Shown here one piece after another: positions 2-19,406 of a stretch of 23,793 bases of DNA. Source of the stretch: a virus. Within the stretch, counting starts at the first letter, position 1, and every line of letters starts with the position of its first letter. Position numbers and translations under genes: made by a program. The notes under the pieces were generated by a model that did not search any database, was not told the origin of the DNA, and worked only from the letters and a program-made list of their open reading frames with translations. Where the stretch lies: IMG/VR virus record IMGVR_UViG_3300017730_003160, positions 1 through 23,793 of that record, one strand, 5' to 3'.

Positions 2-739
2 GCAGAGGCTGAAGCGAAGGCAGAGGCAGAAGCCGAAGCTGAGGCAGAAGCTGAAGCCGAGAAAGAGGCAAAGAGAGAAGAGGCTAAAGAAAAAAGAGAA
101 GCCAAGAGAGAAGAAAGAGAAGCCAAAAAAGAAGAAACCGAATCTGAAGAAAGCGAGGAGTCTGAGGAAGCCGAAGAGAGTGAAGAGTCAGAAGAGTCAG
201 AAGAGTCAGAAGAGACTGAAGAAACTGAAGAATCAGAGGATACGGAAGAACCAAAAGAATCTGAGGAGTCTGAGTCCGAGGAAACTGAAGAAGTTGTAGA
301 GGAAGAATCTGAACAGGAAACTGAAGAAGCGGAAGAGCCTGTAGAAGAAGCGGAGGAAGAACCTAAGAAGAAAAAGAAAGGTGGCTTCTTTGGACTATTT
401 GGAGGAGATGATGAAGAAGAGGCCGAAGAGACAGAAGAAGAATCAGAACCCGAGCAAGAAGTTGAACAGGTAACAGAAGAAGAGTCAGAGCCCGAAGCTG
501 AAGCAGAGCAACCAGAATCAACAGAAACGGGCCAAGAAGCCGTTGAAGAAGCTCCAGAGGTAGTAGAGGTAGAAGAGGCTCCAATCGACGAACTAGACCC
601 AATTAAACCACACTCAGACATAGAAAGTAATGACGCTGGAGAAATGATTGAAACAGAACTTCCAAAAGTATTAACGCCAGACGATGCTATTGTAGTATCT
701 CCATCTGGGCCAGTAAGATCAGTGTCACCAATCAATTAA
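2..739 (+). CDS. Acidic, Glu-rich low-complexity protein (5' end cut by window)
   Basis: Frame 2 is open from the window edge to TAA at 737-739, giving the last 245 residues of a longer protein. The first ~20 residues alternate Ala and Glu, followed by Lys/Arg/Glu-rich sequence that could form a charged helix. A long Ser-Glu-Glu and Thr-Glu-Glu region follows. At residues ~121-135 a lysine run leads into a hydrophobic GGFFGLFGG patch, after which acidic sequence resumes. The last ~50 residues are less biased and end in SVSPIN. Glu makes up close to half of the region, so any homology hit would be dominated by composition. No catalytic domain is visible. Its GFFGL patch recurs in the small gene starting 7 bases downstream, so the two products may act together. 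Function unknown; a scaffold, structural or membrane-tethered charged protein are all possible. Confidence 0.75.
   Translation, partial: AEAEAKAEAEAEAEAEAEAEKEAKREEAKEKREAKREEREAKKEETESEESEESEEAEESEESEESEESEETEETEESEDTEEPKESEESESEETEEVVEEESEQETEEAEEPVEEAEEEPKKKKKGGFFGLFGGDDEEEAEETEEESEPEQEVEQVTEEESEPEAEAEQPESTETGQEAVEEAPEVVEVEEAPIDELDPIKPHSDIESNDAGEMIETELPKVLTPDDAIVVSPSGPVRSVSPIN
182..208 (+). repeat. Three tandem copies of a 9-base unit (GAAGAGTCA)
   Basis: Three perfect head-to-tail copies encode Glu-Glu-Ser repeats inside the acidic protein, in a wider 2-360 stretch of GAR-rich low-complexity sequence. This is a likely site of slippage-driven length variation. Confidence 0.85.
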
Positions 740-746
740 AAAATTT

Positions 747-920
747 ATGATACAAGAAATAATAGAATTAGCAAAAGGAAATTTACTTAAAATAACAATA
801 GCCACAATCGGTATTTTATCTATCGTGTTCCACATTCTCCCCAAAGGTGAAAAGAAATCTGGATTTTTCGGCTTAATAGGGGACGCAATCAACTTTATTA
901 AAAATATATTTAAAAAATGA
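747..920 (+). CDS. 57-residue single-span membrane peptide with GFFGL motif
   Basis: A short gene, starting ATG at 747, 7 bases after the acidic protein's stop; its TGA (918-920) overlaps the next ATG (917) as ATGA. The N-terminus is a short charged helix. Residues ~13-31 form one hydrophobic span (KITIATIGILSIVFHIL). A linker GEKKSGFFGLIGDA and a basic amphipathic tail ending in IFKK follow. The KKxGFFGL(I/F)G patch matches one in the upstream acidic protein. The size and single span would fit a holin-like or envelope-acting phage peptide, but there is no endolysin beside it, so I do not assign that role. The overlap with the secreted PEP-CTERM gene suggests co-expression. Confidence 0.6.
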   Translation: MIQEIIELAKGNLLKITIATIGILSIVFHILPKGEKKSGFFGLIGDAINFIKNIFKK

Positions 921-1555
921 AAAAATTACTTATACTACTACTACTGCCTTTAATAGCGCATCCTACCACAATCACTTCGTTTGAAAGTTTTCAATTAGAT
1001 GTCAAAGAATACGAATTTCTTAGACCCGACGGAAGCTCGCAAGAAGACGAAGGTGAATACGCTTACGCATTAGCATCATTTACGGTAGATGTGGCTGGCA
1101 CTTATTCAGTAGAGAATGTTGGATTCTATGGCGTTGTTTATGTAGGCACGGACAATGATTATACTCAGAATCAAGGTTATACATTTATTGCACCTAACAC
1201 ACCAGATTGGAAAGCGGATACAATGCTTTATGTATATAATGAAGAACCAAATTTAGCAACACCATCAAATCCATTATATTTTGCAGATAACGATGACAAT
1301 GATAATTATACTGGCGAAAGTAATGTTGGTGATTTACTTTTTGCTTTAAGCGCAGATTTAGAAACCAACACAACCTATTATGGTCTTATAACAACCTTTG
1401 ATCCTAAAGTAAATGGAATGGGCACGATTAGAATGGATGGGCCAGGAAATGTAGATATGACATATCTCACAACAATACCCGAGCCATCAACTTATGTGTT
1501 AATACTCGCGTTTGGTGCATTCTTGTATGTAGCAATTCGTAAAAGAAATGCATAA
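917..1555 (+). CDS. Secreted protein with PEP-CTERM sorting signal
   Basis: A 212-residue protein. Residues 1-~16 are a Sec signal peptide (MKKLLILLLLPLIA). The mature part is acidic, rich in Asp, Asn, Thr and Tyr, and probably all-beta. The C-terminus is a textbook PEP-CTERM tripartite signal: PEPST at 188-192, a hydrophobic span to ~207, then a basic RKR cluster before the end. In characterised systems an exosortase cleaves at or near PEP and processes the protein during export to the surface or extracellular matrix; no exosortase gene is present here, so a host enzyme would be needed. The ATG overlaps the preceding stop by 4 bases and the downstream barrel gene by 8 bases, so it sits firmly inside this compact operon. 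The body of the protein matches no family I recognise. Confidence 0.85.
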   Translation: MKKLLILLLLPLIAHPTTITSFESFQLDVKEYEFLRPDGSSQEDEGEYAYALASFTVDVAGTYSVENVGFYGVVYVGTDNDYTQNQGYTFIAPNTPDWKADTMLYVYNEEPNLATPSNPLYFADNDDNDNYTGESNVGDLLFALSADLETNTTYYGLITTFDPKVNGMGTIRMDGPGNVDMTYLTTIPEPSTYVLILAFGAFLYVAIRKRNA

Positions 1556-2696
1556 GTTCCTTATAGTTTTATTATTAGTAGCATCCACTCTCTACGCAGA
1601 AAAGAAGTTTAAGCTGACTTCGTTCAGCAGAATATTCTACGACGATAATGTTTTTATGAGGGCGGCTGGTACGCCCAATCAAACATCAACTTTTTACTTC
1701 AGCCAATCGCTAGGAATAGAAGGTAAGTTCTTTAGGGATTTAATAAATCTAAAGGCTCAACCAGAAATAAGACATAGAAGTGTTGACAACAAAACACTGA
1801 TATTTGGAAACATTGGTATCAGAGGTCAATACGAAATAACACCAAAACTCATTCTTAATTCTACCGATTCATTCTCTCATTTAGAAAGGGAGCCAAGCGA
1901 CATTGATGATGATCTAGATGTGACTTACTTCATGTATAAGAGTTCGTACATGCTGACGTGGAAACCTCGGCATCTCTTAAAAGTTAAAGGTGGTTACGAA
2001 AACCATATCAAACGTTGGTCAGAAAACTTACCAGTAGGAGTTGGCGCTGAGTTAACTAACGGTGACTTTACTAAAGATGCATTTACGTTTGGCGCAGAAC
2101 AAATTATTGGCAAACGTTTTATTCTAGAGTTGATAGGCAAGAAATCATTTTTAGATTATAGTGGAGTTCGTGGAGCAATTGATACTGATACATATTATGC
2201 ACAATTTTCGTACATAATGAATCCCTCAACTGTTATAAAAATAAACTATGGTATAATCGACGCGTTAATAGAAGACCAATATGGGACACTAACTGAATAT
2301 TCAACTCCCACGTATGGAGCGAATATAACATACTTTACCGAAAAGGGCACAGTGATTTTGTTGGGCACTGTGTACGAAGTTCTAGATTCATCTGTAGCTT
2401 ATTGGAATATGAAAGAGAATTTAAAAACATCTCTTATGATAAAATATCCAATCACGCCAAAACTTGAAGTAAACGTAATGGGCGCCCATCTCCTTACTTC
2501 ATACAAAGATATTGGTAATCGGTATAATGCTGGATTGGAACGTGAAGAAGAAGTGTTTATGTCGAGCATAACTTTTGCTTGGAAATATAATGAGAGGCAC
2601 TATGCTGAAGTTGGTTATCAAGGCCTGCATCTATTAAACAAAGATGCCGATGTTTTTAAGAACAAAGCATTCGTTGGGTATCGCTGGGTATTTTAA
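1548..2696 (+). CDS. Outer-membrane beta-barrel protein (BBP2-like)
   Basis: A 382-residue protein with a signal peptide at 1-17 (cleavage after LYA). Near the mature N-terminus it has the FYDDNVF signature seen in putative beta-barrel porin families, including one often found with PEP-CTERM systems. The rest alternates polar and aromatic residues in beta strands separated by charged turns. The protein ends in GYRWVF, a terminal Phe typical of substrates of the outer-membrane barrel-assembly machinery. The start lies inside the PEP-CTERM gene (8-base overlap), indicating translational coupling. The stop at 2694-2696 directly abuts the stop of the convergent gene at 2697. It could be a pore for exporting a surface polymer, a receptor-masking protein or a structural surface protein; the sequence does not decide among these. 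Confidence 0.75.
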   Translation: MHKFLIVLLLVASTLYAEKKFKLTSFSRIFYDDNVFMRAAGTPNQTSTFYFSQSLGIEGKFFRDLINLKAQPEIRHRSVDNKTLIFGNIGIRGQYEITPKLILNSTDSFSHLEREPSDIDDDLDVTYFMYKSSYMLTWKPRHLLKVKGGYENHIKRWSENLPVGVGAELTNGDFTKDAFTFGAEQIIGKRFILELIGKKSFLDYSGVRGAIDTDTYYAQFSYIMNPSTVIKINYGIIDALIEDQYGTLTEYSTPTYGANITYFTEKGTVILLGTVYEVLDSSVAYWNMKENLKTSLMIKYPITPKLEVNVMGAHLLTSYKDIGNRYNAGLEREEEVFMSSITFAWKYNERHYAEVGYQGLHLLNKDADVFKNKAFVGYRWVF

Positions 2697-3482
2697 TCAC
2701 TCAAAATTTATATAAAAATTACAGCCAGTTTTATTTAAAATTTTAGCTAAATTTTTTTCATTATCTAAGATAATATCACCGTTACGAATGATGTGTATTT
2801 CACCATCTTCATCGCTTTTGATTTTTAAACTACCTTCCTTATCTATTCCTAAACTTGAAGATTTTATTGGGTAAATTATTTTTTTATTTTTTAAATAATC
2901 TAAATTATCGTATTCTTTTTGTATGTCGCCTTGTTGATCTTGACAATTTTCCCAAGCGTTGATAATTCCTTCTACAACTTTTTCTGTAATAAAATTCATA
3001 TCATATTTTTTATTTGATTGTATTTTTAAACTTGTCGCTATGTCTTTATATATATCTGGAAATTGAATAAGCTCTGTATTAACATTTAAACCTATAGAAA
3101 AAATATTTTTATAACATATTTTGTCTTGGATAGTTCCTTGGGATTGCATACCAGAAACTTTTTTTCCGTTACAATAGATATCGTTAGGCCATTTTAATTC
3201 GAAATTAAGCTCTTTAATTGTTTTATTTAAAATTTTACAAACTTCTATACCCGCCCAACAAGGAAGAATTAAAACATTTTCCATATTAAGATCTGGCAAA
3301 GCAACAGAAAGATGCAAATTATCTTTAGATTCGCTATGCCATCTTTTGCCAAATCGACCTTTGGCTGATGTCATTTTATTTGCCCTAACAGCAAAAGGGG
3401 GTTTGTGGTTTTTAGATATTAATCTCTCTGTTTCCCAAATTACGCCATCCAATTCTTCATGAAAATATATTGGGGTGCTCAT
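2697..3482 (-). CDS. birA: Biotin-protein ligase, catalytic domain without DNA-binding domain
   Basis: A 261-residue protein matching the BPL/LplA-type biotin ligase fold. I chose the ATG at 3482: it starts at MSTPIYFHEEL, 1 base after the upstream stop, whereas the earlier in-frame ATG at 3527 lies inside the neighbouring gene. The biotin/ATP-binding loop is visible at ~39-50 (SAKGRFGKRWHS, the GRGRxGRxW equivalent). KWPND is at 97-101 with GKKVSGM just after it, GLNVN is at 131-135, and a C-terminal SH3-like small domain spans ~190-240. The N-terminal winged helix of E. coli BirA is absent, so it should ligate biotin but not repress transcription. It is the last gene of a run with an oxygenase and a sulfotransferase. 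No obvious biotin-acceptor domain is encoded here, so its substrate is unknown. Confidence 0.88.
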   Translation of the reverse strand: MSTPIYFHEELDGVIWETERLISKNHKPPFAVRANKMTSAKGRFGKRWHSESKDNLHLSVALPDLNMENVLILPCWAGIEVCKILNKTIKELNFELKWPNDIYCNGKKVSGMQSQGTIQDKICYKNIFSIGLNVNTELIQFPDIYKDIATSLKIQSNKKYDMNFITEKVVEGIINAWENCQDQQGDIQKEYDNLDYLKNKKIIYPIKSSSLGIDKEGSLKIKSDEDGEIHIIRNGDIILDNEKNLAKILNKTGCNFYINFE

Positions 3483-3483
3483 C

Positions 3484-4167
3484 TTACATAAATTCTCTTG
3501 GCCTATTTTTCCAAGCAAGGAAAACATAACTTCTCCGATTGCCAGAAAAGGTTTCTACAGCATGGGGCATTCCGCCAGAAAAGACAACCAATCTATTAGC
3601 TACTGGCTTTACTCTTTGCATCTCTTTGTCATCTTTATCATAAAAAATACAGTCTCCGCCCTCTAGATTTTCGTCAACATCATCATAAAATAAAAATGTA
3701 TAATCTGGATATACTACACTTCCAGACAACATTAACAGAGCCGCATCACAATCTATATGTCTAGCTATCGCTAGCCCGTGACCGCCAAAATTTAATGAAT
3801 CATAGCACCACCACTCAAAACCAGCAAAATCACAAGGATACATTGAGGCTATTTTAGATAAACTTTTAGGAAAATGTTTTTTTGTTATCCATTGTTGGAG
3901 ATGTCCTTTTTCGTGTATTCTTGATTCAAGAGTTTCTTTGACTTTTTCGGAGTTACGAAATTTTTGTTTGTTTTCCTTTGTCCCAGTGTATGTTCCTTTC
4001 ATACATTGCGAGTTAGGTCTTAATTCATTTAATGTATCACCTCTCCAAGTAGCGTCTATTAAATTGTCTGTGTGCGGGCAAACAATTTTGCCTGCGAATG
4101 AATTTATATCAGAGACAAAATTTTTTAATTCTTCTTCCGTTAAAACATTATCGTATATCTTTATCAT
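3484..4167 (-). CDS. Fe(II)/2-oxoglutarate-dependent oxygenase
   Basis: A 227-residue protein with the prolyl-4-hydroxylase-like double-stranded beta-helix pattern. The iron ligands are visible as HxD at H137-D139 (in ARHIDCD) and the distal H202 (PHAVETF); R211 or R212 is positioned to bind 2-oxoglutarate. This family uses O2 and 2-oxoglutarate to hydroxylate proteins, nucleotides or small molecules, and the substrate cannot be read from sequence. Its ATG overlaps the stop of the upstream sulfotransferase gene as ATGA, and one base separates its stop from the biotin ligase start, so the three are probably made together. 2OG oxygenases of this type are frequent in marine phage tail regions, where their roles are mostly unproven. 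Confidence 0.85.
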   Translation of the reverse strand: MIKIYDNVLTEEELKNFVSDINSFAGKIVCPHTDNLIDATWRGDTLNELRPNSQCMKGTYTGTKENKQKFRNSEKVKETLESRIHEKGHLQQWITKKHFPKSLSKIASMYPCDFAGFEWWCYDSLNFGGHGLAIARHIDCDAALLMLSGSVVYPDYTFLFYDDVDENLEGGDCIFYDKDDKEMQRVKPVANRLVVFSGGMPHAVETFSGNRRSYVFLAWKNRPREFM

Positions 4168-4835
4168 GTCGCGTAGTTAAATCTTTCAAAATCTTCTGCC
4201 CAAAGTTCTTTTACTTTATTCTTTGAGGTTTCTGTATAATAACTCATATAATTTTCAGAATAAGAATCTAAGTCGTTTTGATTTAAATGGGGCAATATAG
4301 GATCAATAGTTAAATTATTATCTGTTACAAAACCAGAAAAATCATTCTGTAAATTTTCGAATCTTAAAATATTAATCTCAGTATCTACATCAAGATAAAA
4401 AGACTGGGAAAGATGACCTATGTCTTGGTTATCTACACAATAGTCAATAAAATTAGACAAGCCCTCAATATCGTTGTTATAAGCTCCAAAAGTTGTTTCA
4501 AAATGTTCACTACTTAGGCTCTTTTTATTAAAGAAAAATTGAGAAACCATTCTATCATATGGGTCTCTACAAACTGCAAAAGACGGATTATCTAAAATAC
4601 CACTACCTAAAACACTGATAGCTTTAGAAAAACTACAATGTGAATAGGGCCAAATTTTAAGGGTGTTTCCAGGGTATACATGCAAATCAAACCAATCTCT
4701 TGCTGCTATTTGACCTTGATCATAATTTTCGGAACCACTCATGCTTTCATCTGTAATGGTGTTTTTATCGCCTATGTGTGCGTAAATACTAGATGATGCA
4801 CATTTAGGTATTCTTATAAAATTCAATTCTGGCAT
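4164..4835 (-). CDS. Sulfotransferase family protein (PAPS-dependent)
   Basis: A 223-residue protein. The 5'-phosphosulfate-binding loop is at residues 7-17 (IRIPKCASSSI; K11 and S14-S16 match the P-loop-like motif). The 3'-phosphate-binding motif CRDPYDRMVSQFF follows at ~89-101, as in the Sulfotransfer_2 family. These enzymes transfer sulfate from PAPS to hydroxyl or amino groups of glycans, peptides or small molecules. The acceptor-binding middle region is short, and I cannot infer the acceptor. The 4-base overlap with the downstream oxygenase gene suggests coupled expression: a hydroxylase could in principle create the hydroxyl that is then sulfated, which is inference only. No Shine-Dalgarno is evident before the ATG; the upstream 25 bases are almost all A and T. 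Confidence 0.82.
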   Translation of the reverse strand: MPELNFIRIPKCASSSIYAHIGDKNTITDESMSGSENYDQGQIAARDWFDLHVYPGNTLKIWPYSHCSFSKAISVLGSGILDNPSFAVCRDPYDRMVSQFFFNKKSLSSEHFETTFGAYNNDIEGLSNFIDYCVDNQDIGHLSQSFYLDVDTEINILRFENLQNDFSGFVTDNNLTIDPILPHLNQNDLDSYSENYMSYYTETSKNKVKELWAEDFERFNYAT

Positions 4836-4840
4836 ATATA

Positions 4841-5026
4841 TTAATTATTACTAAAAGTTTCGTATATTATAAATTCTGGTTGAGCTTGCTTTTCTTTATA
4901 TTTATTTGGAAAAACTGTTACAGGATGTTTCTTGCCCTCTATTACTACATAGCCAGCTAAATATTTGCCATTTTTACCTTCTTTTTTCCAGAAAGCTCCC
5001 CTTTGTTGTTCCGTCCATTTACTCAT
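4841..5026 (-). CDS. Small basic protein resembling a conserved phage family (DUF736-like pattern)
   Basis: A 61-residue protein. The pattern is WxxxxRGAFWKKEGKNGKY near the N-terminus, then a YVVIEGKKHPVTVFPNK strand region, and an ending of QPEFIIYE. From memory, small proteins of this shape (an aromatic-Lys start, an FPNK-like strand, a K..PDFRIY-like end) are recurrent in marine phages, and the layout recalls DUF736; a profile search is needed. No catalytic residues stand out. It sits between the LRR protein and the sulfotransferase, 31 bases after the former. The length is complete and the start has no alternative. Confidence 0.6.
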   Translation of the reverse strand: MSKWTEQQRGAFWKKEGKNGKYLAGYVVIEGKKHPVTVFPNKYKEKQAQPEFIIYETFSNN

Positions 5027-5033
5027 ATTTAAG

Positions 5034-5061
5034 AATATAAAGTAAATTTTTGAAAAGTCAA
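5034..5061 (-). promoter_or_regulatory. Possible sigma70-like promoter upstream of the small-protein gene
   Basis: On the - strand TTGACT (5056-5061) is followed, after a 16-base spacer, by TATATT (5034-5039). It lies in the 31-base gap before the ATG at 5026 and overlaps the preceding stop codon. A transcript would begin almost at the start codon. In sequence this AT-rich, such a match can arise by chance. Confidence 0.22.
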
Positions 5062-6101
5062 GTTATATCTGCTACAACATCTAACCCTGCATAGGTTGAG
5101 CCGTACGCTGCGCTGGCTGAAGCGGGGACGTGTATTTCGCGAGTCTCAACTGTACCAGTGTAGAATATATCCCCTCCATCACTTGGAGGACTTGATGCAA
5201 GTAAGTTAATAGTAGTTAGGGCATTGGCGTGTTTGAATGCACCACTTCCAATCGAGGTCACATTGCTGGGGATCGTGATACCAGTTAGGTTATTACAGTA
5301 AGAGAATACACTATCTCCAATCGAAGTCACGCTGTCGGGGATCGTAATGCTTGTTAGGCTTCTGCATGTGGAGAAAGTTCCATTTTCAATTGAGGTCACA
5401 CCGTTGCCAATTGTAACGTCGCTTAGGTTTTCACATACACCAAATGCATTATTCCCAATTCCTGTCACGCTGTCTGGGATAATAATACTGGTCAGAGCAG
5501 AGCAGCTATTGAATGCACTTTGTCCTATTCCAGTGATCGAAGCACCAAGATTAACGGTAGTTAAATTAGGACACTGACTTAGCGCAACGCTTGGCAAAGT
5601 GTCGATAGCGTCCCCTATCAAAGAAAAACTTTTAATATCGCTGTTATTATTCAGACTAGGAAGATTAACGCCTTGACCACTTACTCTTGTTGTGCCACTA
5701 ACGTAGACATGAGAATTTTTGTCATACCAAATAAGGTTACTACCTTTGTAAACTTTGTTGACATTTGATTGAGGTACAGCTTCAAAAGATGTATATTCTG
5801 ATTCTAGATCACTTGCTGTAATTCCAGTAATACTATCTACGACACCAGTTGTAATATAAAAATTCGTGGCGCTGCCAGCGGCATATGAAGTGACAAATCT
5901 ACCAGAATTAGGCCCAGATTCTAAACGAGTGATACCATCACCGTAATTGCCAGCCGCGTCATAATCGTCTGGATGAATTGTGTTCCAATGATTACTCGTT
6001 ACTTTGTAAAGAATGCCAGCTGGAGTTCTGTTAGATTTAATAGAAACTGTATTTTCAGTTGGTGTTCCTATATTAATTTTATATGCGTCATTAGTTATCA
6101 T
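5058..6101 (-). CDS. BspA-type leucine-rich-repeat protein, putative adsorption/tail-associated protein
   Basis: A 347-residue protein. Residues 1-~110 are an N-terminal region of unknown fold. A short VNKVYKGSNLIWY segment at ~114-126 resembles linkers seen in phage structural proteins. From ~177 to 314 there are six consecutive 23-residue LRR_5/BspA units built on the pattern C-x-x-L-T-x-I-x-I-P-x-x-V-T-x-I-G-x-x-A-F. The C-terminus has the usual capping sequence (IHVPASASAAYGSTY). Such repeats mediate binding in bacterial surface proteins and occur in phage receptor-binding proteins. No signal peptide is seen, which favours a virion or cytoplasmic product over a secreted one. The ATGA overlap with the fibre-like gene upstream implies they are made together. 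The receptor-binding role is inference. Confidence 0.8.
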   Translation of the reverse strand: MITNDAYKINIGTPTENTVSIKSNRTPAGILYKVTSNHWNTIHPDDYDAAGNYGDGITRLESGPNSGRFVTSYAAGSATNFYITTGVVDSITGITASDLESEYTSFEAVPQSNVNKVYKGSNLIWYDKNSHVYVSGTTRVSGQGVNLPSLNNNSDIKSFSLIGDAIDTLPSVALSQCPNLTTVNLGASITGIGQSAFNSCSALTSIIIPDSVTGIGNNAFGVCENLSDVTIGNGVTSIENGTFSTCRSLTSITIPDSVTSIGDSVFSYCNNLTGITIPSNVTSIGSGAFKHANALTTINLLASSPPSDGGDIFYTGTVETREIHVPASASAAYGSTYAGLDVVADIT

Positions 6102-7030: not shown

Positions 7031-7042
7031 TATTATTTACAC
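7031..7042 (-). promoter_or_regulatory. GTGTAAATAATA element before the fibre gene
   Basis: The - strand reads GTGTAAATAATA, ending 3 bases before the ATG at 7027. Similar elements precede several other non-overlapped genes in this window. The function is unproven; a -10-like element is one reading. Confidence 0.3.
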
Positions 7043-7395: not shown

Positions 7396-7396
7396 A

Positions 7397-9546: not shown

Positions 9547-10590
9547 ATGGCAAATGGAATAAATCAAGATTTTGCAAGGGCTATTTTTGATGTGGAACCA
9601 ACAGCATTGTTGGAACTGTATACCTTGTACTATGATTATCAAAACGATTCTCAATCTCAGATCAATTTTCATGGAGGAACGAATGGAATTGGCGGCTCAA
9701 TTATATTTGATGGGCAGGAATATCTACCTTTGCCTATAGAATCTAATGGATTTGACATATTGGGCGACCAAAGGCTTCCTAGACCAATTCTAAAAGTATC
9801 AAACGCTGGGCTTTATATTTCTTCTCTTTTAAGGCGTTTTGACAACTTAAATAACGCAAAAGTAGTAAGAAAAAGGACATTCTTAAAATTTTTAGACGAT
9901 GCAAACTTTCCCAATAATAAAAATCCATGGGGCGCAGCTAATCCAAGCGCAAGAATGCCAGACGATAAGTACTTTATTTCAAGAAAAGTATCAGAAAATA
10001 AATTAGCAGTAGAGTTTGAGCTAGTATCTAGTTTAGAATTAGAGAATATAGAAATACCAGCTAGAAAAATATCATCAAGATATTGTTCCTGGATTTATAG
10101 GGGATTTGGTTGCCGATACGGATATAACGAAACTGCCGAAAAAGCCGATAGACCAATTGGAACCACTGATGATCAAACTTTTATAACTGGTGCGGGCAGC
10201 TCATTCGCTTATAATGGTGATCTATTCCCTGTAACAACATCTGCTAGCAGCGTAAATGATTTGATAGATAATAAGGGATTGTGGGAAACCGACACATCTT
10301 ATGCTATAGGAGATTACGTTTTCAAATATAGCGACAGGGTTTCAGAGGGGCAGGGTCTTACCTCTAATTATTATCAACAACACCCAGTTTATTACATATG
10401 TAAAAGCGCTCATACATCAGCTAGTGGTGCGCCACCAGAAAAAAAACCAGACTTGTGGATTAAGGACGAATGTTCTAAAAAATTATTTGGTTGTAGACTT
10501 AGATTTGCAAATGATGATTTTGGAGGAGTAAATAATAACAAAGATTTACCTTATGGTGGATTCCCAGGAACAGAGAAATATTCTTACTAA
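9547..10590 (+). CDS. L: Phage minor tail protein L with inserted carbohydrate-binding-like domain
   Basis: A 347-residue protein versus ~230 in lambda gpL. Residues 1-~175 are the gpL N-terminal domain (the FDGQEYLPLPIESNGFDI type of start, then a LELENIEIPARK segment). The four cysteines that in lambda gpL hold an iron-sulfur cluster are present as two pairs: C180/C189 and C309/C316 (RYCSWIYRGFGC and ECSKKLFGCRLRF). Between the pairs is a ~100-residue insertion with the pattern LWxxxxxYxxGDYVF...VYYICKSAHTS...PPxxxPDLW. That resembles small chitin/cellulose-binding CBM5/12 modules. The protein belongs at the tail tip next to gpJ. It is the first gene of the + strand tail run and overlaps gpK by one base (TAATG). 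Confidence 0.9.
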   Translation: MANGINQDFARAIFDVEPTALLELYTLYYDYQNDSQSQINFHGGTNGIGGSIIFDGQEYLPLPIESNGFDILGDQRLPRPILKVSNAGLYISSLLRRFDNLNNAKVVRKRTFLKFLDDANFPNNKNPWGAANPSARMPDDKYFISRKVSENKLAVEFELVSSLELENIEIPARKISSRYCSWIYRGFGCRYGYNETAEKADRPIGTTDDQTFITGAGSSFAYNGDLFPVTTSASSVNDLIDNKGLWETDTSYAIGDYVFKYSDRVSEGQGLTSNYYQQHPVYYICKSAHTSASGAPPEKKPDLWIKDECSKKLFGCRLRFANDDFGGVNNNKDLPYGGFPGTEKYSY

Positions 10591-10964
10591 TGAGTATTAA
10601 AAGAAAAATAGAATTTGAATGCGAAAAAGATGTTTCTGAAGAACGTTGTGGCTTTGTTATATATAAGGATGGAGAATTAGATTTAATTATGTGCGAAAAC
10701 CGTGCGGAAGATAAAAAGAATCAATTTTATATACCAGCAAAAGAATTTCTTTATATAAAAAACAATCACGATATTGTTGCAATTTATCATTCACATAACG
10801 ACGGCACGGAAAAGCCTTCTGATTTTGATATAAAATCTGCTGATATTATTTGTTACCCATTTTTAATTTATTGCACTAAAAATAATAAATTTGGAATTCA
10901 CACTCCAGAGTATTCAGACGCGAAAGAAAAACATTTTAAACAATTGATGGAGGAAATAGCATGA
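10590..10964 (+). CDS. K: Tail assembly protein K, JAMM metallopeptidase domain only
   Basis: A 124-residue protein. The JAMM/MPN+ zinc motif H-x-H-x7-S-x2-D is complete (H67, H69, S77, D80 in YHSHNDGTEKPSDFD). A Glu near E17/E18, just before CGF, is placed as the catalytic Glu. Lambda gpK is about twice as long and has a second NlpC/P60 peptidase domain; that half is missing here and not encoded immediately downstream. The protein probably processes a tail-tip component during assembly. It is coupled to gpL by TAATG and to the first gpI by ATGA, in the conserved lambda L-K-I-J order. Confidence 0.87.
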   Translation: MSIKRKIEFECEKDVSEERCGFVIYKDGELDLIMCENRAEDKKNQFYIPAKEFLYIKNNHDIVAIYHSHNDGTEKPSDFDIKSADIICYPFLIYCTKNNKFGIHTPEYSDAKEKHFKQLMEEIA

Positions 10965-11548
10965 CTGAAATAGTACTACATGGATTGGTTTCTAAAAAAT
11001 TTAAAGACGTCCACAAAATGGCGAATATAAAAACTCCTTCAGATGCTATTTTTGCTATAGACGCCAATTACGATGGATTTAAAAATTTTTTCTTAAAGGA
11101 AGCGAAAATAAATAACTTTTATCAGTTTGTTGTAGATGGAAATCTAGTAGAAAATGCTAATGAAGCATTAGAAAAAAAGGAAATGAAAAGAATAGATATA
11201 GTTCCTTATATTGGCGGATCTGGCCCAGCAATTATAGCATTTGTTGTTACTTTAGCTATTGGATTAGTAATGGCTGGAATACAATATTTAATGACTCCTA
11301 TACCCGAAAACGAACCAAAAGTAATGGTAGCTCAGTTGGGGGGTAATTCTTTTTGGTTTGCATCTAAATATAATCTTACGAATCAGTTTACTTCTGCCCC
11401 TATAGGTTACGGCGAGTTAAGGGTTGGATCGACTGTTATAGAAACACAAATTAAAGCAACAAATAGAAACGAAACTATTTCTGTTGGTTCTTCTAATAGT
11501 GTTTCAAGTTCGCCTGGTGGAGGTGGAGGAGCGGGAGGCACCTACTAA
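10961..11548 (+). CDS. I: Tail assembly protein I, first copy
   Basis: A 195-residue protein of the lambda tail assembly I type. Residues 1-~83 are a beta-grasp-like domain (an IVLHGLVSKKF start, PSDAI, an ending in RIDIVPYIGG). A hydrophobic Gly-rich segment at ~86-110 ends in YLMTPIPENEP. The C-terminal part includes APIGYGELRVGS and a disordered Ser/Gly tail. A Shine-Dalgarno (GGAGG) lies 7 bases before the ATG, one of the clearest in the window. The protein is paralogous to the next gene. By lambda analogy gpI helps assemble or activate gpJ at the tip and need not stay in the virion. Confidence 0.82.
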   Translation: MTEIVLHGLVSKKFKDVHKMANIKTPSDAIFAIDANYDGFKNFFLKEAKINNFYQFVVDGNLVENANEALEKKEMKRIDIVPYIGGSGPAIIAFVVTLAIGLVMAGIQYLMTPIPENEPKVMVAQLGGNSFWFASKYNLTNQFTSAPIGYGELRVGSTVIETQIKATNRNETISVGSSNSVSSSPGGGGGAGGTY

Positions 11549-12237
11549 TGAAAACAAAAATAAAATTACATGGTAAATTAGCAAAGAATTATGGAGATTC
11601 TTTTGAGTTTAGTAATATTAATAAACCATCTGATGTAATTAAGGCAATAGAATGTGTATTGCCAGGATTTAGAGATGCAATTATCGACGCAGCAAAGGTT
11701 GGGGCTCATTATGAAATAATTGTAAATGGTAAATCAAAAAATGCATTTGAATTAGATAAGAAAGTAAAAAATATAGAGCAAGTCGATATAATTCCTTGTT
11801 TACTTGGGCAGGGGGGAGGAGCCTTAGCTGCCCTGGTTCTTGGTGTTATAGCTGTGGGTGTAGGACTCGCCGCAACAAGTGTCGCCGCAGCTGCATTTTT
11901 TATAGCTTTAGGCGTTGGTTTGATTATAGCTGGAATTATGTATCTATTAACTCCAATACCAGAAACCGAGCCTAATGAAAACAGTATTAGAGCTTCAATT
12001 AGAAATTCATCTTTCTTGTTTCAAAACCCAAGCAACACAGCAACACAAGGGAGAGCTATACCTGTCGTTTATGGAAAATTAAGAGTTGGATCTTATGTTG
12101 TTGGTACGTCTGTAACAAATTTTGAACTACACGAAGATACGCAGCTTCAAAGAAGATTTTCAGCAAACAATACAAATGCATTACTAAAAATAAACAAATC
12201 TTTTGGAAGCTCTATATCTGAATTATATAGGACTTAA
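11548..12237 (+). CDS. I: Tail assembly protein I, second copy
   Basis: A 229-residue paralogue of the preceding gene. It shares KxKLHGKLAK.Y at the start, PSDVIKAIE, the closing VDIIPCLLG of the N-terminal domain, YLLTPIPETEP after the hydrophobic segment, and AIPVVYGKLRVGS in the C-terminal part. Its hydrophobic region is longer (~91-135, very Ala/Gly/Val-rich) and it has a ~45-residue hydrophilic extension instead of the Gly tail. It keeps the more canonical gpI C-terminus, so it is probably the ancestral-type copy. It starts with a one-base TAATG overlap and stops 2 bases before the first gpJ ATG. Confidence 0.85.
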   Translation: MKTKIKLHGKLAKNYGDSFEFSNINKPSDVIKAIECVLPGFRDAIIDAAKVGAHYEIIVNGKSKNAFELDKKVKNIEQVDIIPCLLGQGGGALAALVLGVIAVGVGLAATSVAAAAFFIALGVGLIIAGIMYLLTPIPETEPNENSIRASIRNSSFLFQNPSNTATQGRAIPVVYGKLRVGSYVVGTSVTNFELHEDTQLQRRFSANNTNALLKINKSFGSSISELYRT

Positions 12238-12239
12238 TA

Positions 12240-15200
12240 ATGAGAGATTATATACTAGAAAAATATAAGAACCGCGATACGTTAGCTATTACTGGTAGTT
12301 CTGATGGCGGCGGTGGTGGCACTACACCAAACGTAAATCAAGCCAATGCTGACAGACTGAGTGCTGAGTTCGCTAGAATGCTGCCCCCGCTTGCTAATGA
12401 TTTATTATTATCAAGTGCCGAGTTGACTGCATCAGATATGGTTTCAGAGGGGCCTATTGAAGGATTTGTAAATAATGAAGGGTTGCCCTGTCCCCCGTTA
12501 GAGGCTACTTTTTTAGATGGAACAGCTGTTGCTGAACCGTCTTCAAAAAAAATAACAAAACAAGATTTAATTTTTGAAAAATTAGATGGTGTCAGATCTG
12601 ATTATAAATCCTTTGTTAGTGGAGAATTGGATGGATATATAAGTTATTTAAATTCTAGGTTCGTACATAAAGAGCCAATAGTAATTTCAAATTGGATTCA
12701 AGGCAGGTCAGACATAAATGGAGATTATGATTCCGCCATTAATACTTATAGGGGAGGTAAAGTAGGTCCGCTACAAACCTCAGATAATATTTTAAATTGT
12801 ACTCCAACTGCTTTAAAAAGTACAATAATGAGATGGGGGCCTGGAGCAAAAGGTGCTGGTGGTGGAACCGATACTTCTGAAATGGCGCTAGCTCCAAATG
12901 AAATGTTGTATAGATATGCTGGAGCTGGATTTAGAAAAACACCATACTCATATAGAAAAATTTATCATCCTAATTCCGTAATTAACAGAGATGATTATAC
13001 TTCCCCTTCTTATGATTACGTATTTAGTGAAGATCAACCTGTTTTATATCAAGGAAGTTATGACTTTGGATGCTCTATAACTGAAAGGGGTTTTTTGAAT
13101 AGATCATTTTGTTCTAGAGCTTTTTTTAAGTTTATAGCAGAACCTACATCAAGCAATGGTGACTACTCAAATCATCAGAAATTTTGCGCAACAGCAGTAA
13201 GATTGACTGGAATTTATGATAGTAAATTCCCAAACGGAAAGCCTGGAAAATATACATATTCATTAGCCGCGCAAGCAGAGCCAGAAGGTTTAAAAGAACC
13301 TCTTATTGACGATGTTGTAAGTTCTATAAATTCTATGGGGTTAGATTATTGGAAGCCTATAAGATTTCATGAATCTTATTATCAATTAAATCGTTCAAGT
13401 ACCTCAATTGATGTCCCAGAGGATCATCATAGTCGTGCAAGAAGAGCTGGCAAATATAATAAAACCCCAAAAGATTTTTCTTATATAAGTGGCGGCGCAA
13501 CTCAGACAAGAAAAATAGATGATGGAATCGTAACATATAACACATGGAATTCAAAAAGAATCTATGTAGAAAAAGATGAAAATGAAACTGATGTAAATGG
13601 AAATGTTATACCAAGGACTAATCAAAATGCAGGTAACGACGTAATGTCGGCTGGCGGGCTACCAAAGTTGGTAAGAAACATACCTCTAGTAACACCCCAA
13701 AGAGTTCACCTATTTAGTGAAAAGCTGATTGTTATGGATCAAACGGCAGGATCAACGGATACAAGAGCATACTTACAAGAAGGATCGCTAGTAGGAGTTA
13801 GTGGTAATGTTCAAAGATGGTACAAACCAAATAAAACTTATAGAATTACTGGATCACTTTATTTTCCAAACGATAATGTTAAAGTTGATAGTTTTAATTT
13901 TTATTTAGTAGGAGATTCATCGCAAGGTATAGGTGGTCAGAGCATAGCAACAGTGGGCCCATTTAAAGACAACAATTGGAGAGATTTTGATTTTGAATTT
14001 ACAAACAGCGGAGATGGGAATTTCAGAAAGATGAGATTTAACTTAAAGAACGGAAACGATTCTACTGGGTTAACTCAGACTGGAGATTTTATAGGAATTA
14101 AAGATTTTACGGTTTTAGAAAAAACATTAAAAAATGAAGAGCCAGGAAAAGATCCGCGTATAGCGTATATGAATTTCAAGGCGCAAGATTTTTTAGGTAC
14201 GGGAGTTACGATTCAAGGGAATTCATATCCGTTTAACATGTCTCCTTTTGAAAAAAGTTCAGAAATAAGTTTTGCGTTAAACAATGTCCCGTTTGACGTA
14301 GGAGATAGTAATGCATTAAAATTTTTATTCCCCAAAATAACTGATTTTGAACTATCTACAAAAAATATAAAAGAATCTATAACTTTAAGAACTGTCACTA
14401 ACGAAACAGCAAGTTGTGGCACAAAAAATAATGATGATATGAAATTTCCATTTGTGACGGGGGCAACCAACTCGCCCACTATAGGATTTCAATTGTCAGA
14501 AGCCCTAACTAATGAAATAGAAGGTGCTTTTTTGTGGCCAGTATGGCTAGGTGACGATTTAGATCCAGTTAATAATTTTGGAAGCACTTCGTCCATAGAT
14601 ACTGGGAAACTTTTTATTGATTTAATTGAGGGAGAAGACATTGGATTTAATGGAGTTTTGACATCAGATTTTTATGAATCATCCAAATTTTCTAAATTAC
14701 AATCGGGAATAGAAAAAGGTTACGATGTTTTTGGTGTTATAACAGAACCTCCGCCTCCATTTGGTACTCCTGTTGAATTCCGCCTGGAGATGGGCAGTCT
14801 TGCTGGCACAACACAAGATTATGGTATTTTAGCCACCAATGGAACTTCTGACCCTCACGTAATGGAGGGGGTATACATAAAAACTGGAATAGATGCTTAC
14901 TACTCTCGTCACGCTGATACCGATAGTAACCTTTCAAATAGTTTAATTGATAATCAACGGAATGCTTGGGTTAGAGTAAGATCACAGTCCGAAGGAATAG
15001 ATACAACTATAGATATAAGTACGCCCTATGGCGCTACCAATTTTGTAGGTTTGAAAAACGGGGTATTTCATGACGTAGATGGAACTTCTCTACCTTCTAC
15101 TGGAAGAAACACAAACAATTCAGCATTTTATAGTGAAGGTGGTACTTGGAAATGTATTTTTGATGGAGCGATCGACAGTACAAGATTTGATTATTACCCT

Positions 15201-18200
15201 TATGACTATTTCGATTCTTATGATGATTTTGGTTGGGTAGCTATGAAGGGAGATGAATATGATACTTCGTCCTCAACTTCTACCAGTTATGAAAATGATG
15301 ATTATGATAATCCTTGGGAGGTTCCATCTTGGAAATTCCAAGGACTATTTGCAGCAGTTGCAAGTTATTACGGACCTCAAGGGAAATCAGTTAATGTTTG
15401 CCCTAATGATACTCCAGGTGGTCAAGGTGGTGGTGTGCTACCAGGAGGCGCACCACAACCTGGATGTGCTTATGCTCCGACAATGAACAGCCCTTATTAT
15501 TATAGTTACGCAAATCAAAGAAGGGTTACGCCAGTTGGACACCCATTTGATCCAAAGTCTGGGAATTTTAAAGATTTTAGAGACGAACTTGGAAGAACGG
15601 GGGATTTAGTCGATGGAACTATTGTAGGTAGGAGAACTAGTATCCCCACGAGAAAAATTATATATTTACATGCAGCAAACCCAAATTTAGGGGCGCCTAG
15701 CGCCAATGTTACTGGTAAACCATTAAGCATAAGTTTAAAAGAAAGTCTTCCAACTGCATTTAATTTTAATAATTTTAAAATAGATTATAGTTTAGGAGAA
15801 GAAGATCAAAAACCTCTTAGTAATGAAAGTGTCACAACCACAGAATATAATAAAAACATATATGGACCCAATGAGATTTATAGAGCTGGTTCTGCTGTAG
15901 GAGCGGCGGGCGGCGCAGTCGCTGATGTTACGCTCTCAAGATTTGATTATGGCACTGGCCCTTTAACCCATAGGGGAGCTACATATTATAGATGGCGAGT
16001 AAGCAGTGTAAATATAACAAATGGTGGCGCAAATTATTCTGATAATGTTACATTAAATTTTAATTCAAATTTACAAACTTATGTAGATCCAAATCCTACC
16101 GTAAATGTTAGTAATGGTGTCGTTCAAAGTGTATCGTTTGCCAATACAGCCGCTAAAGGACAATTCGAAGGAAGTGGTTTCATTTTTGGCAACTACAGCG
16201 CGCATACATATGGTCATTTGTCGCCAGTAGTCACAGCGACAGTTGTTGACGAAAACGATGGAGAAGTTGTAGCAGGCGACCTTTCTTTAAATTTAACTGG
16301 AGATAATACTGATTATAATTATGGAATGAGAAAATACAGTGCTATAGATGGCACTGCAAGCACGGACATCGAATCAGACGGAACATATCAATCAGATTGG
16401 ATGGAAAATATACCATTGGATGCAGATATTGTTCCTTTAATTCATGCTATAACTAGAAGAGAGGTAGACTGTGTTAAAATAACATTAATTATAGAATCCC
16501 TTTATCAACAATTAATACAGGGACAGGATCCATTAGCGGGCGCCACTATAAAAAGGGACGGTTTAGATATTAATTTTTCTGTTTTAACTTATTTTGATGG
16601 AGTGCCAGAAAGTATATATCCGAAGAAGGAAACTAAAATAAATTTCTTTGGAACTGTGACGACTTTCTATGCAGTTGATACCGAAGAAATAGCATTGCCA
16701 TCTTATTCAGAAATTTTAACTGCTTACCCAAATGAAGATTATAAAAGTCTTTCAGTGAAGTATCCTAGAGTGGTAGAAGTTAGAAAAAATGATTTTGAAA
16801 CAAATAGTGTAAGAATGTCTAGGGATGCAAGAGTTTTCCAAGTGGTGGAAGTTATAAAACAAAGTTTTAAATATCCATTTTCTGCAATTATGAAGAGTTC
16901 TGTAGATGCTAGAACTTTTAGAGAGCCACCCAATAAACAATGGAGGCTTAGATTAAAGAAAGTTTTAGTACCTTCTAACTACTATCCTTTAGATATAGAT
17001 GGAAGTGATAAAAGATTTGTGAAAGATGCAAATAGAGTAGGAACTAGAATAGTTTACGATGGAAATTGGGATGGAACATTTAAAACTGCTTGGACTGATA
17101 ATCCCGCTTGGATTCTTTATGACTTATTAATAAATCAAAGATATGGGATAGGTAATAGAATAGATGACTTACAGGATATTAATATATTTAATTTATATAA
17201 GATTGGAAGGTATTGTGATTCAGTAAATGATAATGGAGAGTTTGTTGGGTTAGATGACGGAGTCGGTGGATTGGAGCCAAGATTCTCTTGTAATATAATG
17301 CTTACGGCGTCACAAAACGCGTTTCAAACAATAAGTGACATTTGTACTGTTTTTAATGGCATGGCTTTTTGGGTTAATGGAAGATTAGACTTTTTCGCAG
17401 ACCAGCCAAAAGAGCCAATGACATTTTTTAATAATGAAAATGTTTTTGATGGTATATTTAATTATACAACAACAAATAAGTCATCATTATTTAATGTGGC
17501 GGAGGTAACTTTTTTAGATAAAAGAGATGATTTTTCAGCTAAAAAAGAAATAGTAATGGATGAAGACTCGATGCGACAAAATGGTGTAATAAGAAGAGAT
17601 ATAAATGGCAAAGGCTGCACCAGTAGAGCTCAAGCTGCTAGATTAGGCAGATATATTTTATACACCAATAAACTGGAAAGGGAAATAGTTAATTTTAAAT
17701 CGTCAAGTGAAAGTTTAATGCTTTCTATTGGAGATGTAATAGAAATACAAGATGAGCTTAAAAACTTTGAAGTAAGTTACGGTAAAATTTTAGAAATCGA
17801 AGCGGGGTCTGTAACAATAGAAGACAAGCCAAATGTTAATTCGATATTAACTAATCCTTCTGGGGCTTTTGTGGTCACTCCAACTGGTCAAGATCAACTA
17901 ACTGAATTATATGATCAAGTTCTAGCTGGTGGTTTTATTACAAATAATACATTAGACAATTTATACGATCCACAAGCAGTCAAGTTAGAAGTGACTGGAG
18001 CGATAAGGGTTGATAACAAAATTAAAATAGGTGTAGCAGATCCGAATTTTAGGTTAAATCTTGTACCAACTGGTACATTGATAAATTTAGATTTACAAAA
18101 TAGAAATACACATCAATATCGAGTATTAACTATAAAACCAGAAGAGGATAATTTATATTCAATTACTGCTACAGAGTATAAAAAAGAAAAATTTAATTTA

Positions 18201-19406
18201 ATTGAAACCAAAGAAGATTTTAAAATAGATGAAGAAGATTCATATAATGTAGGCATACCGAATAACACAACAAAACCCCTTAGTGAGCCAAGTGGTTTTG
18301 GAGCTCAAACAGTTCTCGTCAACAGTAGAGAGCAAAATATACAGTTTAATATTACAGGCTACGCAACTGGAAACGAAACCGCTTACCAGTTAACTGTTAT
18401 TTCTCCAAATGGTAAAGTAGATACTCAAATTGTTCCCAAGTCAGAAACGCTTGCACTGGCAGGCCCAAGTTCTAATAATTATTATGTCACCAAAGGAGAA
18501 GTTAAAGATTTAAATAGTTATGGAACTTATAATTTTGAAGTTAAATCAATTAGTTCAAAAGAGATATTTGGTACTCCATCTTCAATAGATTTTACTTCAC
18601 CTCAGACTACATTCAGTCCGTCTTCCTTAGATACCGACGGCGACGGATTAACAGATTATGAGGAAAATGTTATATACGGAACAAATCCAAACAATACTGA
18701 TACAGATTTTGATGGCTTGTCTGACTATGATGAAATTAATACGCATGGAACAAATCCTTTAAATAGGAATACTGATGGAGATTTGATAGATGATGGCGGG
18801 GAACTAACTATAGGAACAGATCCATTAACATTTAATGATCCTAGTGAATTTTACCCGTTGATAACTGGATTCAGAATTAAAGACACAATAAGACAGAGCG
18901 GAGTAGTTGAGTTAGCGTTCGCGAAAGGCGCTTATACCATACATGGCATATTACCGAATGTAAATGGATTATATCAATTAAGCGGAACTATAAACGGAAA
19001 GACAGCATGGGCTGGTGCAAGAGATTACCCAAGGGTGGCAGGAGACACTGCAAATTATATATCAAATAATAACCCATATAAAAACGTTCACAACCCAGGG
19101 TCTGGAATGGTTACTTATGACTCAACAAGTGGTCACTGGAGAATTGAAACTAACCAAACATTTGCGTCAGCATACTTCAGAAATGTACAATTGTGGACTG
19201 GAGGCTCTAATGCAGGGTATCCTTGGGAAGTAACCGATTGGAAACAAGTATCTATGGTAGACAGTGATGGTGATGGCGCTCCAGATTATGAATCCGTTTT
19301 AGATGAAACAAGCGATTCGACGACATTATCCGCAGCTGGTGCCGCAAGCCTCCCAACAATATTTTTCACTTATACACAAGATGGCACAGTAATAGATTTA
19401 TCATGA
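12240..19406 (+). CDS. J: Giant gpJ-type host-specificity tail-tip protein with TSP3 and CBM-like domains
   Basis: 2388 residues, about twice lambda gpJ. The N-terminus has the gpJ attachment motif (MVSEGPIEGFVN, ~67-78). Residues ~500-628 look like an inserted CBM4/9-type jelly-roll. A GGANY-type beta domain lies around ~1250-1345. The conserved J core spans ~1540-1900: PSNYYPLDIDGSDKRF ending at F1593, WDGTF at 1610-1614, WTDNPAWILYDL from W1618, and GIGNRIDDLQDINIFNLY just after. A fibronectin-III-like region is at ~2014-2128. The C-terminus carries TSP3 calcium repeats (DTDGDGLTDYE from 2131, DTDFDGLSDYDE from 2154, NTDGDLIDDGGE from 2177). A ~145-residue terminal domain and a further DSDGDGAPDYE at 2341-2351 follow. 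gpJ is the tail-tip receptor-binding protein; the extra domains probably set specificity. Confidence 0.9.
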   Translation: MRDYILEKYKNRDTLAITGSSDGGGGGTTPNVNQANADRLSAEFARMLPPLANDLLLSSAELTASDMVSEGPIEGFVNNEGLPCPPLEATFLDGTAVAEPSSKKITKQDLIFEKLDGVRSDYKSFVSGELDGYISYLNSRFVHKEPIVISNWIQGRSDINGDYDSAINTYRGGKVGPLQTSDNILNCTPTALKSTIMRWGPGAKGAGGGTDTSEMALAPNEMLYRYAGAGFRKTPYSYRKIYHPNSVINRDDYTSPSYDYVFSEDQPVLYQGSYDFGCSITERGFLNRSFCSRAFFKFIAEPTSSNGDYSNHQKFCATAVRLTGIYDSKFPNGKPGKYTYSLAAQAEPEGLKEPLIDDVVSSINSMGLDYWKPIRFHESYYQLNRSSTSIDVPEDHHSRARRAGKYNKTPKDFSYISGGATQTRKIDDGIVTYNTWNSKRIYVEKDENETDVNGNVIPRTNQNAGNDVMSAGGLPKLVRNIPLVTPQRVHLFSEKLIVMDQTAGSTDTRAYLQEGSLVGVSGNVQRWYKPNKTYRITGSLYFPNDNVKVDSFNFYLVGDSSQGIGGQSIATVGPFKDNNWRDFDFEFTNSGDGNFRKMRFNLKNGNDSTGLTQTGDFIGIKDFTVLEKTLKNEEPGKDPRIAYMNFKAQDFLGTGVTIQGNSYPFNMSPFEKSSEISFALNNVPFDVGDSNALKFLFPKITDFELSTKNIKESITLRTVTNETASCGTKNNDDMKFPFVTGATNSPTIGFQLSEALTNEIEGAFLWPVWLGDDLDPVNNFGSTSSIDTGKLFIDLIEGEDIGFNGVLTSDFYESSKFSKLQSGIEKGYDVFGVITEPPPPFGTPVEFRLEMGSLAGTTQDYGILATNGTSDPHVMEGVYIKTGIDAYYSRHADTDSNLSNSLIDNQRNAWVRVRSQSEGIDTTIDISTPYGATNFVGLKNGVFHDVDGTSLPSTGRNTNNSAFYSEGGTWKCIFDGAIDSTRFDYYPYDYFDSYDDFGWVAMKGDEYDTSSSTSTSYENDDYDNPWEVPSWKFQGLFAAVASYYGPQGKSVNVCPNDTPGGQGGGVLPGGAPQPGCAYAPTMNSPYYYSYANQRRVTPVGHPFDPKSGNFKDFRDELGRTGDLVDGTIVGRRTSIPTRKIIYLHAANPNLGAPSANVTGKPLSISLKESLPTAFNFNNFKIDYSLGEEDQKPLSNESVTTTEYNKNIYGPNEIYRAGSAVGAAGGAVADVTLSRFDYGTGPLTHRGATYYRWRVSSVNITNGGANYSDNVTLNFNSNLQTYVDPNPTVNVSNGVVQSVSFANTAAKGQFEGSGFIFGNYSAHTYGHLSPVVTATVVDENDGEVVAGDLSLNLTGDNTDYNYGMRKYSAIDGTASTDIESDGTYQSDWMENIPLDADIVPLIHAITRREVDCVKITLIIESLYQQLIQGQDPLAGATIKRDGLDINFSVLTYFDGVPESIYPKKETKINFFGTVTTFYAVDTEEIALPSYSEILTAYPNEDYKSLSVKYPRVVEVRKNDFETNSVRMSRDARVFQVVEVIKQSFKYPFSAIMKSSVDARTFREPPNKQWRLRLKKVLVPSNYYPLDIDGSDKRFVKDANRVGTRIVYDGNWDGTFKTAWTDNPAWILYDLLINQRYGIGNRIDDLQDINIFNLYKIGRYCDSVNDNGEFVGLDDGVGGLEPRFSCNIMLTASQNAFQTISDICTVFNGMAFWVNGRLDFFADQPKEPMTFFNNENVFDGIFNYTTTNKSSLFNVAEVTFLDKRDDFSAKKEIVMDEDSMRQNGVIRRDINGKGCTSRAQAARLGRYILYTNKLEREIVNFKSSSESLMLSIGDVIEIQDELKNFEVSYGKILEIEAGSVTIEDKPNVNSILTNPSGAFVVTPTGQDQLTELYDQVLAGGFITNNTLDNLYDPQAVKLEVTGAIRVDNKIKIGVADPNFRLNLVPTGTLINLDLQNRNTHQYRVLTIKPEEDNLYSITATEYKKEKFNLIETKEDFKIDEEDSYNVGIPNNTTKPLSEPSGFGAQTVLVNSREQNIQFNITGYATGNETAYQLTVISPNGKVDTQIVPKSETLALAGPSSNNYYVTKGEVKDLNSYGTYNFEVKSISSKEIFGTPSSIDFTSPQTTFSPSSLDTDGDGLTDYEENVIYGTNPNNTDTDFDGLSDYDEINTHGTNPLNRNTDGDLIDDGGELTIGTDPLTFNDPSEFYPLITGFRIKDTIRQSGVVELAFAKGAYTIHGILPNVNGLYQLSGTINGKTAWAGARDYPRVAGDTANYISNNNPYKNVHNPGSGMVTYDSTSGHWRIETNQTFASAYFRNVQLWTGGSNAGYPWEVTDWKQVSMVDSDGDGAPDYESVLDETSDSTTLSAAGAASLPTIFFTYTQDGTVIDLS

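Follow-up and report, generated by a model that had tools for sequence, protein, structure and literature searches.

The genes at the left end of a 23.8-kb virus contig belong to a phage and form a conserved unit, as the initial annotation had proposed, and the unit, shared by uncultured marine phages, recurs in 28 other contigs. It joins a PEP-CTERM gene to an outer-membrane barrel gene, and the ectodomain of the PEP-CTERM protein has been swapped between phages, which suggests that phages re-coat infected cells via a bacterial display route. Our leading reading, a tentative one that we place somewhat below an even chance, is that the four genes are a phage-encoded late surface-display module, which would use the host exosortase and re-coat the cell against adsorption. 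Ectodomain swapping, late promoters, T4-like carriers and PEP-CTERM genes in unrelated phage contigs all go beyond the initial annotation.

Organization of the operon

The window, by which we mean the whole stretch of DNA analysed, is the 23.8-kb IMG/VR virus record IMGVR_UViG_3300017730_003160. Its main features are:

2..739, plus strand: acidic, disordered protein; the ORF enters the window open and its start lies outside
747..920, plus strand: 57-aa membrane peptide with a single hydrophobic span followed by an amphipathic, Lys-rich tail
917..1555, plus strand: PEP-CTERM protein of 212 aa, with signal peptide, beta-rich ectodomain and PEP-CTERM
972..1471 (limits approximate), plus strand: exchangeable ectodomain of the PEP-CTERM gene, from nucleotide identity comparison between contigs
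1472..1546, plus strand: PEP-CTERM sorting domain IPEPSTYVLILAFGAFLYVAIRKRN, PF07589 match at residues 186-210
1548..2696, plus strand: outer-membrane beta-barrel of 382 aa, with 18 predicted strands, signal peptide and C-terminal Phe
9547..19406, plus strand: phage tail module (lambda L-, K-, I- and J-like genes), from PHROGs matches

The ORFs at 747-920, 917-1555 and 1548-2696 are tightly coupled. The PEP-CTERM ORF shares 4 nt with the 57-aa ORF (917-920) and 8 nt with the barrel ORF (1548-1555), an overlap with both neighbours that the initial annotation had reported and that the ORF coordinates bear out. The lambda-type tail module, whose PHROGs matches reach 2.8e-55 and 7.1e-109, marks the contig as phage, and a tail module of the same L/K/I/J type is also present in 7 related records. 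Within and beyond it lies a tandem pair of J-like tail proteins (12240-19406 and 19788-23792), the first of 2388 aa and with Asp-rich calcium-binding-like repeats (DTDGDGLTDYEE) in its C-terminal part.

The minus strand carries several further genes. A phage-borne, BirA-like biotin/lipoate ligase (2697-3527; PF03099, 43 bits) has a copy in contig L007 that is 77% identical, and genes for a 2OG-Fe(II) oxygenase (PF13640) and a sulfotransferase (PF03567) at 3484-4835 adjoin the operon. A 61-aa ORF (4841-5026) is 89-95% identical across contigs with differing neighbour genes. Positions 5058-7027 encode a BspA-type leucine-rich-repeat protein and a fibre-like protein with a Phage_tail_C end; at the matching site, L002, L003 and L011 hold leucine-rich-repeat-type copies, several in tandem. 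Two small paralogous ORFs (MSESIHQLEKEIH and MSVESIHNLEKEIH) neighbour each other at 7042-7654.

Features of the encoded proteins

The 917-1555 product begins with MKKLLILLLLPLIAH and ends with IPEPSTYVLILAFGAFLYVAIRKRNA. Pfam PF07589 matches residues 186-210 of its 212 with 21.9 bits against a cut-off of 20.7, and NCBIfam TIGR02595 falls slightly below its cut-off (15.4 against 16). The C-terminus has the PEP motif, hydrophobic helix and basic tail of an exosortase substrate, and it is kept in 17 aligned relatives (alignment A2), some of which end in PES instead of PEP. In 15 related virus records searched whole, all 14 PF07589 matches at E<=0.1 lie in this gene type; because of this, and because the gene order recurs, the match is not a chance one. 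Judged by eye, as were all signal peptides of the operon proteins, the protein opens with a Sec signal peptide (MKKLLILLLLPLIA...), and an equivalent is found in all full-length relatives. The ectodomain was modelled as a beta-sandwich with weak matches to adhesin and carbohydrate-binding folds, the AlphaFold models being built on shallow alignments of 14 and 17 sequences. Two contigs (L009, L016) carry two PEP-CTERM genes in tandem.

A pattern scan with VPEPSTYAL also returned PEP-CTERM ORFs in other phage-like contigs (L109/L110/L117 and L116) that are unrelated to the operon; they comprise a 117-aa family and a 95-aa ORF. A further one is in L118, a member of the L024 lineage, and has no adjacent barrel. 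Phage PEP-CTERM genes may thus be a wider, undescribed phenomenon.

For the barrel, the AlphaFold2 model (pLDDT 77) has 18 antiparallel strands. The protein combines a signal peptide, a closed barrel and a C-terminal aromatic residue, and the final F is invariant among relatives; its C-terminus, ...GYRWVF, agrees with the terminal Phe of the initial annotation. The closest structures are OprD/Occ channels (including OccK1) and AlgE, at modest Foldseek TM-scores of about 0.5-0.57. A PDB sequence search gave no credible match, the barrel had no NCBIfam match, and no sequence relation to any phage family was found for it in PHROGs or INPHARED; nor did INPHARED yield a match in tblastn with the barrel and the PEP-CTERM protein. 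The BBP2_2 profile scored 15.2 bits (E 0.0098), below its curated threshold of 23.7. Homology between the phage barrel and the exosortase-locus barrel of the metagenome-assembled genome (MAG) NP1052 was considered and is unsupported (hhalign probability 5.5%).

The 57-aa peptide has a Kyte-Doolittle maximum of 2.17 and is 93-100% identical in several contigs, and in L014 and L062 its slot is taken by different small membrane proteins, the one in L014 having two spans. Full-length relatives of the acidic protein measure 426-653 aa and share a conserved N-terminal region, a weakly hydrophobic segment and a Glu/Asp/Ser-rich tail with repeated KKKKGGFFGLFGG-type motifs; they were found solely in contigs that have the operon or end near it. 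The acidic tail, for example at L044:450-2066, also holds a Lys-rich GFFS/GLFG motif in two to three repeats, and the similar KKSGFFGLIG occurs in the 57-aa peptide.

The unit is conserved in phages with unrelated genomes

Scans of viral contigs returned 21 and then 30 barrel loci, and four more came via the PEP-CTERM protein. Leaving out the window, the PEP-CTERM gene lies directly upstream of the barrel gene in 28/28 contigs that have upstream sequence, a count that includes several contigs of one population as well as a 142-kb phage contig and a 12-kb T4-like contig. At 95% nucleotide identity, the barrel genes of 25 contigs (window included) make up 18 groups. An acidic protein and a small membrane protein usually precede the pair, so the four-gene order whose search in related phage contigs had been proposed does recur. 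In L023, L024 and L118 a PEP-CTERM gene stands without an adjacent barrel.

In contigs of the window's lineage, the encoded tail is of the lambda-J type. L044, G009 and their relatives are T4-like, with a clamp loader 59-60%, gp43 49% and RegA 67% identical to those of the Kyanoviridae phage C48C1, and in the G005/G006/G007 group neither T4 hallmarks nor J were found. The module therefore occurs in unrelated genome contexts. A temperate life style was considered; nine records, all partial, contain no integrase, and the phages therefore look lytic.

These contigs also bear on the possibility that the contig is a chimera, or that the segment was captured from a cell and plays no part in the phage. 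In its favour, PEP-CTERM proteins otherwise come from cells, and a bacterial MAG includes one of the related contigs. However, a phage/host junction between 2696 and 9547 is contradicted by independent contigs, among them L007, whose collinearity with the window begins at the 57-aa peptide, takes in BirA and several small ORFs and reaches J. The 142-kb contig G005 (IMGVR_UViG_3300020469_005214) carries the operon plus large-terminase-like, ribonucleotide-reductase-like and DnaE-polymerase genes (terminase and polymerase identified by tblastn, the others by eye). Confinement of the unit to cellular genomes without phage neighbours is contradicted as well, the unit being found almost only in virus records: the lone 'cellular' match in a GTDB contig scan, a 12-kb NP1052 contig, shares 99% identity with phage contigs of IMG/VR, and no cellular donors or relatives were found in 392 Pseudomonadales genomes (alignment A2) or 369 Gammaproteobacteria genomes (alignment A1). 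Because the unit recurs in other contigs, including the collinear L007 and G005, we regard a chimera as excluded for practical purposes; the 28 phage contigs, two phage lineages, phage promoters and purifying selection leave any such artefact a negligible probability.

The ectodomain is exchanged between phages

Between the window and L001, nucleotide identity is 89-96% in the 57-aa peptide gene and 80-94% in the barrel gene, but only 35-45% in the PEP-CTERM body that lies between them. By contrast, the pattern is reversed against L022, with 88-96% in the body and 47-63% in the flanks. Overall, the window ectodomain is 35-51% identical at the nucleotide level to contigs whose flanks reach 82-96%. 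Pair by pair, ectodomain and barrel are 96% and 46% identical for window/L022, 30% and 96% for window/L001, and 97% and 80% for L005/L018. Since L018 is T4-like, ectodomain types are, as judged from these alignments, crossing phage lineages. Aligned base by base, the sequences have one breakpoint where the signal peptide begins and another immediately ahead of the PEP motif; therefore what is exchanged should be the portion left once both signals have been removed. There are at least 5 ectodomain alleles, typically 20-49% identical to one another.

Pairwise Nei-Gojobori estimates of dN/dS are 0.035-0.086 for the barrel and 0.10-0.48 for PEP-CTERM genes within an allele. By these estimates, the barrel is under strong purifying selection.

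Late-type promoter motifs precede the operon

In the T4-like contigs, TATAAATA occurs upstream of ORFs 38 times against 2.5 expected. The acidic gene is preceded at 21-28 nt by this element in L014 and L062, and by CTAAATA in L044, L017, L019, L065 and L067, so that a T4-type late element lies near the first gene in T4-like members. In the J lineage, GTGTAAA was counted upstream of ORFs 16 times against 1.0 expected and, in 21 of the 25 upstream cases, is placed 14-16 nt ahead of the start. It precedes the acidic gene as well as tail and fibre genes, at -14 in the window's lineage. The same motif, found for example upstream of the window ORF at 6098-7027, is apparently a phage-specific promoter of J-lineage contigs. 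The enrichment of these motifs points to late transcription of the operon.

Exosortase and candidate hosts

No exosortase is encoded in the window, as the initial annotation had stated, nor in related partial records of 142, 92, 70, 51, 43 and 42 kb. Since none of the phage records searched encodes the enzyme, processing by the host would be implied, and the sorting signal itself suggests that the PEP-CTERM protein would be an exosortase substrate.

As to the host, L044 is contig C47 of NP1052, a T4-like phage contig binned with Porticoccaceae in the GTDB set, likely through mis-binning or infection. NP1052 has an exosortase locus whose enzyme scores best as XrtC (VPDSG type; 271 bits against a cut-off of 300), and it has no PEP-CTERM gene besides that on the phage contig. 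Across Porticoccaceae, exosortase occurs in 29 of 80 genomes and PEP-CTERM proteins in 24 of 80, both counts including NP1052, whose PEP-CTERM match is the phage contig. Because MAG binning of phage contigs is unreliable, Porticoccaceae are a weak lead, plausible but unproven as host. Judged from PEP-CTERM style, Verrucomicrobiota or Planctomycetota hosts are plausible.

Discussion

In the surface-display reading, the barrel would insert in the host outer membrane, and the PEP-CTERM protein would be exported by Sec, its C-terminal helix then keeping it at the inner membrane. Host exosortase would cut at the PEP motif, and the product would end up either displayed on the cell surface or released to it. 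As anchor or exit channel, the barrel may serve this protein as its outer-membrane partner, a partnership that we infer, and the small membrane peptide and acidic protein may act on the cytoplasmic or inner-membrane side. The variable ectodomain would set specificity on the constant platform of the barrel. Such late re-coating would keep progeny or competing phages from adsorbing to the infected cell or its debris. Its purpose would thus probably be to mask the cell surface against re-adsorption or superinfection; masking is our first choice because, with exchange confined to its exposed part, the gene is like other surface genes involved in arms races. Early expression is frequent among exclusion systems, which counts against this reading, the operon promoters being late-type. 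Also against it stand the XrtC-type score of the NP1052 enzyme and the three contigs whose PEP-CTERM genes lack an adjacent barrel. A more specific version, in which marine phages run an exosortase-display system whose fixed barrel carries or exports a host-exosortase-processed protein with a swapped specificity domain, is in our estimation rather doubtful.

The late-type promoters would equally suit an accessory role in lysis, with barrel, small peptide and PEP-CTERM protein weakening or opening the outer membrane at the end of infection alongside holin, endolysin and spanin. In L014, L062 and G015 the operon is divergent from, and back-to-back with, a cluster of small membrane proteins, of which a 73-aa gene in L014 matches the Rz-like spanin phrog_739 at 7e-5; the second operon gene of L014 is replaced by the two-span, holin-like protein. 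However, no operon gene matches a lysis family (holin, endolysin or spanin), only neighbours in some T4-like contigs do, and the neighbours in the window's lineage are fibre and tail genes. This role also gives no reason for the multiple exchanged ectodomain alleles, and we consider it unlikely.

Also unlikely, in our judgement, is a control of exopolysaccharide (EPS) or aggregation, whereby the phage protein would tether or replace matrix proteins of the host, with the result that infected cells adhere to their neighbours, or are left without matrix, at progeny release. In cultured bacteria, EPS attachment and floc formation depend on PEP-CTERM proteins (PMC12188702; PMC9850573). Among NCBIfam profiles, that of the floc protein PepA best matches the body of several alleles (E 4.5e-4), but at 20 bits it is far from the cut-off of 80. 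BBP2_2/EpsL-type barrels (PF10082, TIGR03014) are similar in size to the phage barrel and show weak profile similarity, and those of EPS loci adjoin exosortase genes, as the EpsL-like barrel does in loci L070 and L079. Nevertheless, the phage barrel stays below the profile cut-off, has no demonstrable homology to the NP1052 EPS-locus barrel, and is accompanied by no EPS genes within the operon.

Nutrient uptake, with the barrel as a phage-borne substrate channel and the PEP-CTERM protein as its surface binding partner, could draw on the OprD/Occ substrate channels as best structural neighbours and on ZepA, a PEP-CTERM exoprotein that supplies zinc in Anabaena (PMC10957091), but the TM-scores are only about 0.55, the promoters are late-type, and a binding protein that is quickly exchanged while the barrel hardly varies is more in keeping with antigenic variation than with the binding of solutes, which makes this reading very improbable.

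Several known systems resemble parts of the operon. The PEP-CTERM/exosortase (EpsH/XrtA) system of Gram-negative bacteria has the same signal peptide, diverse ectodomain, PEP motif, hydrophobic helix and basic tail; the phage version differs in having no exosortase or EPS locus, an exchanged ectodomain and late-type promoters. The Lc porin of PA-2 and Lom of lambda are phage-encoded outer-membrane proteins, likewise barrels able to alter host surface or receptors, whereas the operon barrel has 18 predicted strands and a PEP-CTERM partner gene, and its phages look lytic. Llp of T5 is a receptor-blocking phage lipoprotein, and the operon would likewise protect progeny from re-adsorbing to cells or debris; unlike Llp, it includes no lipoprotein, would use a host sorting enzyme and has late-type promoters. 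Phage use of the exosortase/PEP-CTERM pathway was not found in the literature searched, INPHARED, PHROGs or NCBIfam; in the paper that pairs PEP-CTERM with phage (PMC12642866), the genes at issue belong to the Microcystis host and not to a phage.

Otherwise, PEP-CTERM proteins have been associated with the attachment of EPS (PMC12188702) and with the supply of zinc (PMC10957091), and how they get through the outer membrane has yet to be settled (PMC12188702). With a barrel and a PEP-CTERM protein paired in one compact unit, the phage operon makes this question testable, and if the exosortase-display version were true, the barrel would be a candidate for the missing outer-membrane step of PEP-CTERM sorting. 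If confirmed, our reading would mean that phages exploit a bacterial surface-sorting route, and that competition among phages, or between phage and host, is being fought out at the swapped ectodomains.
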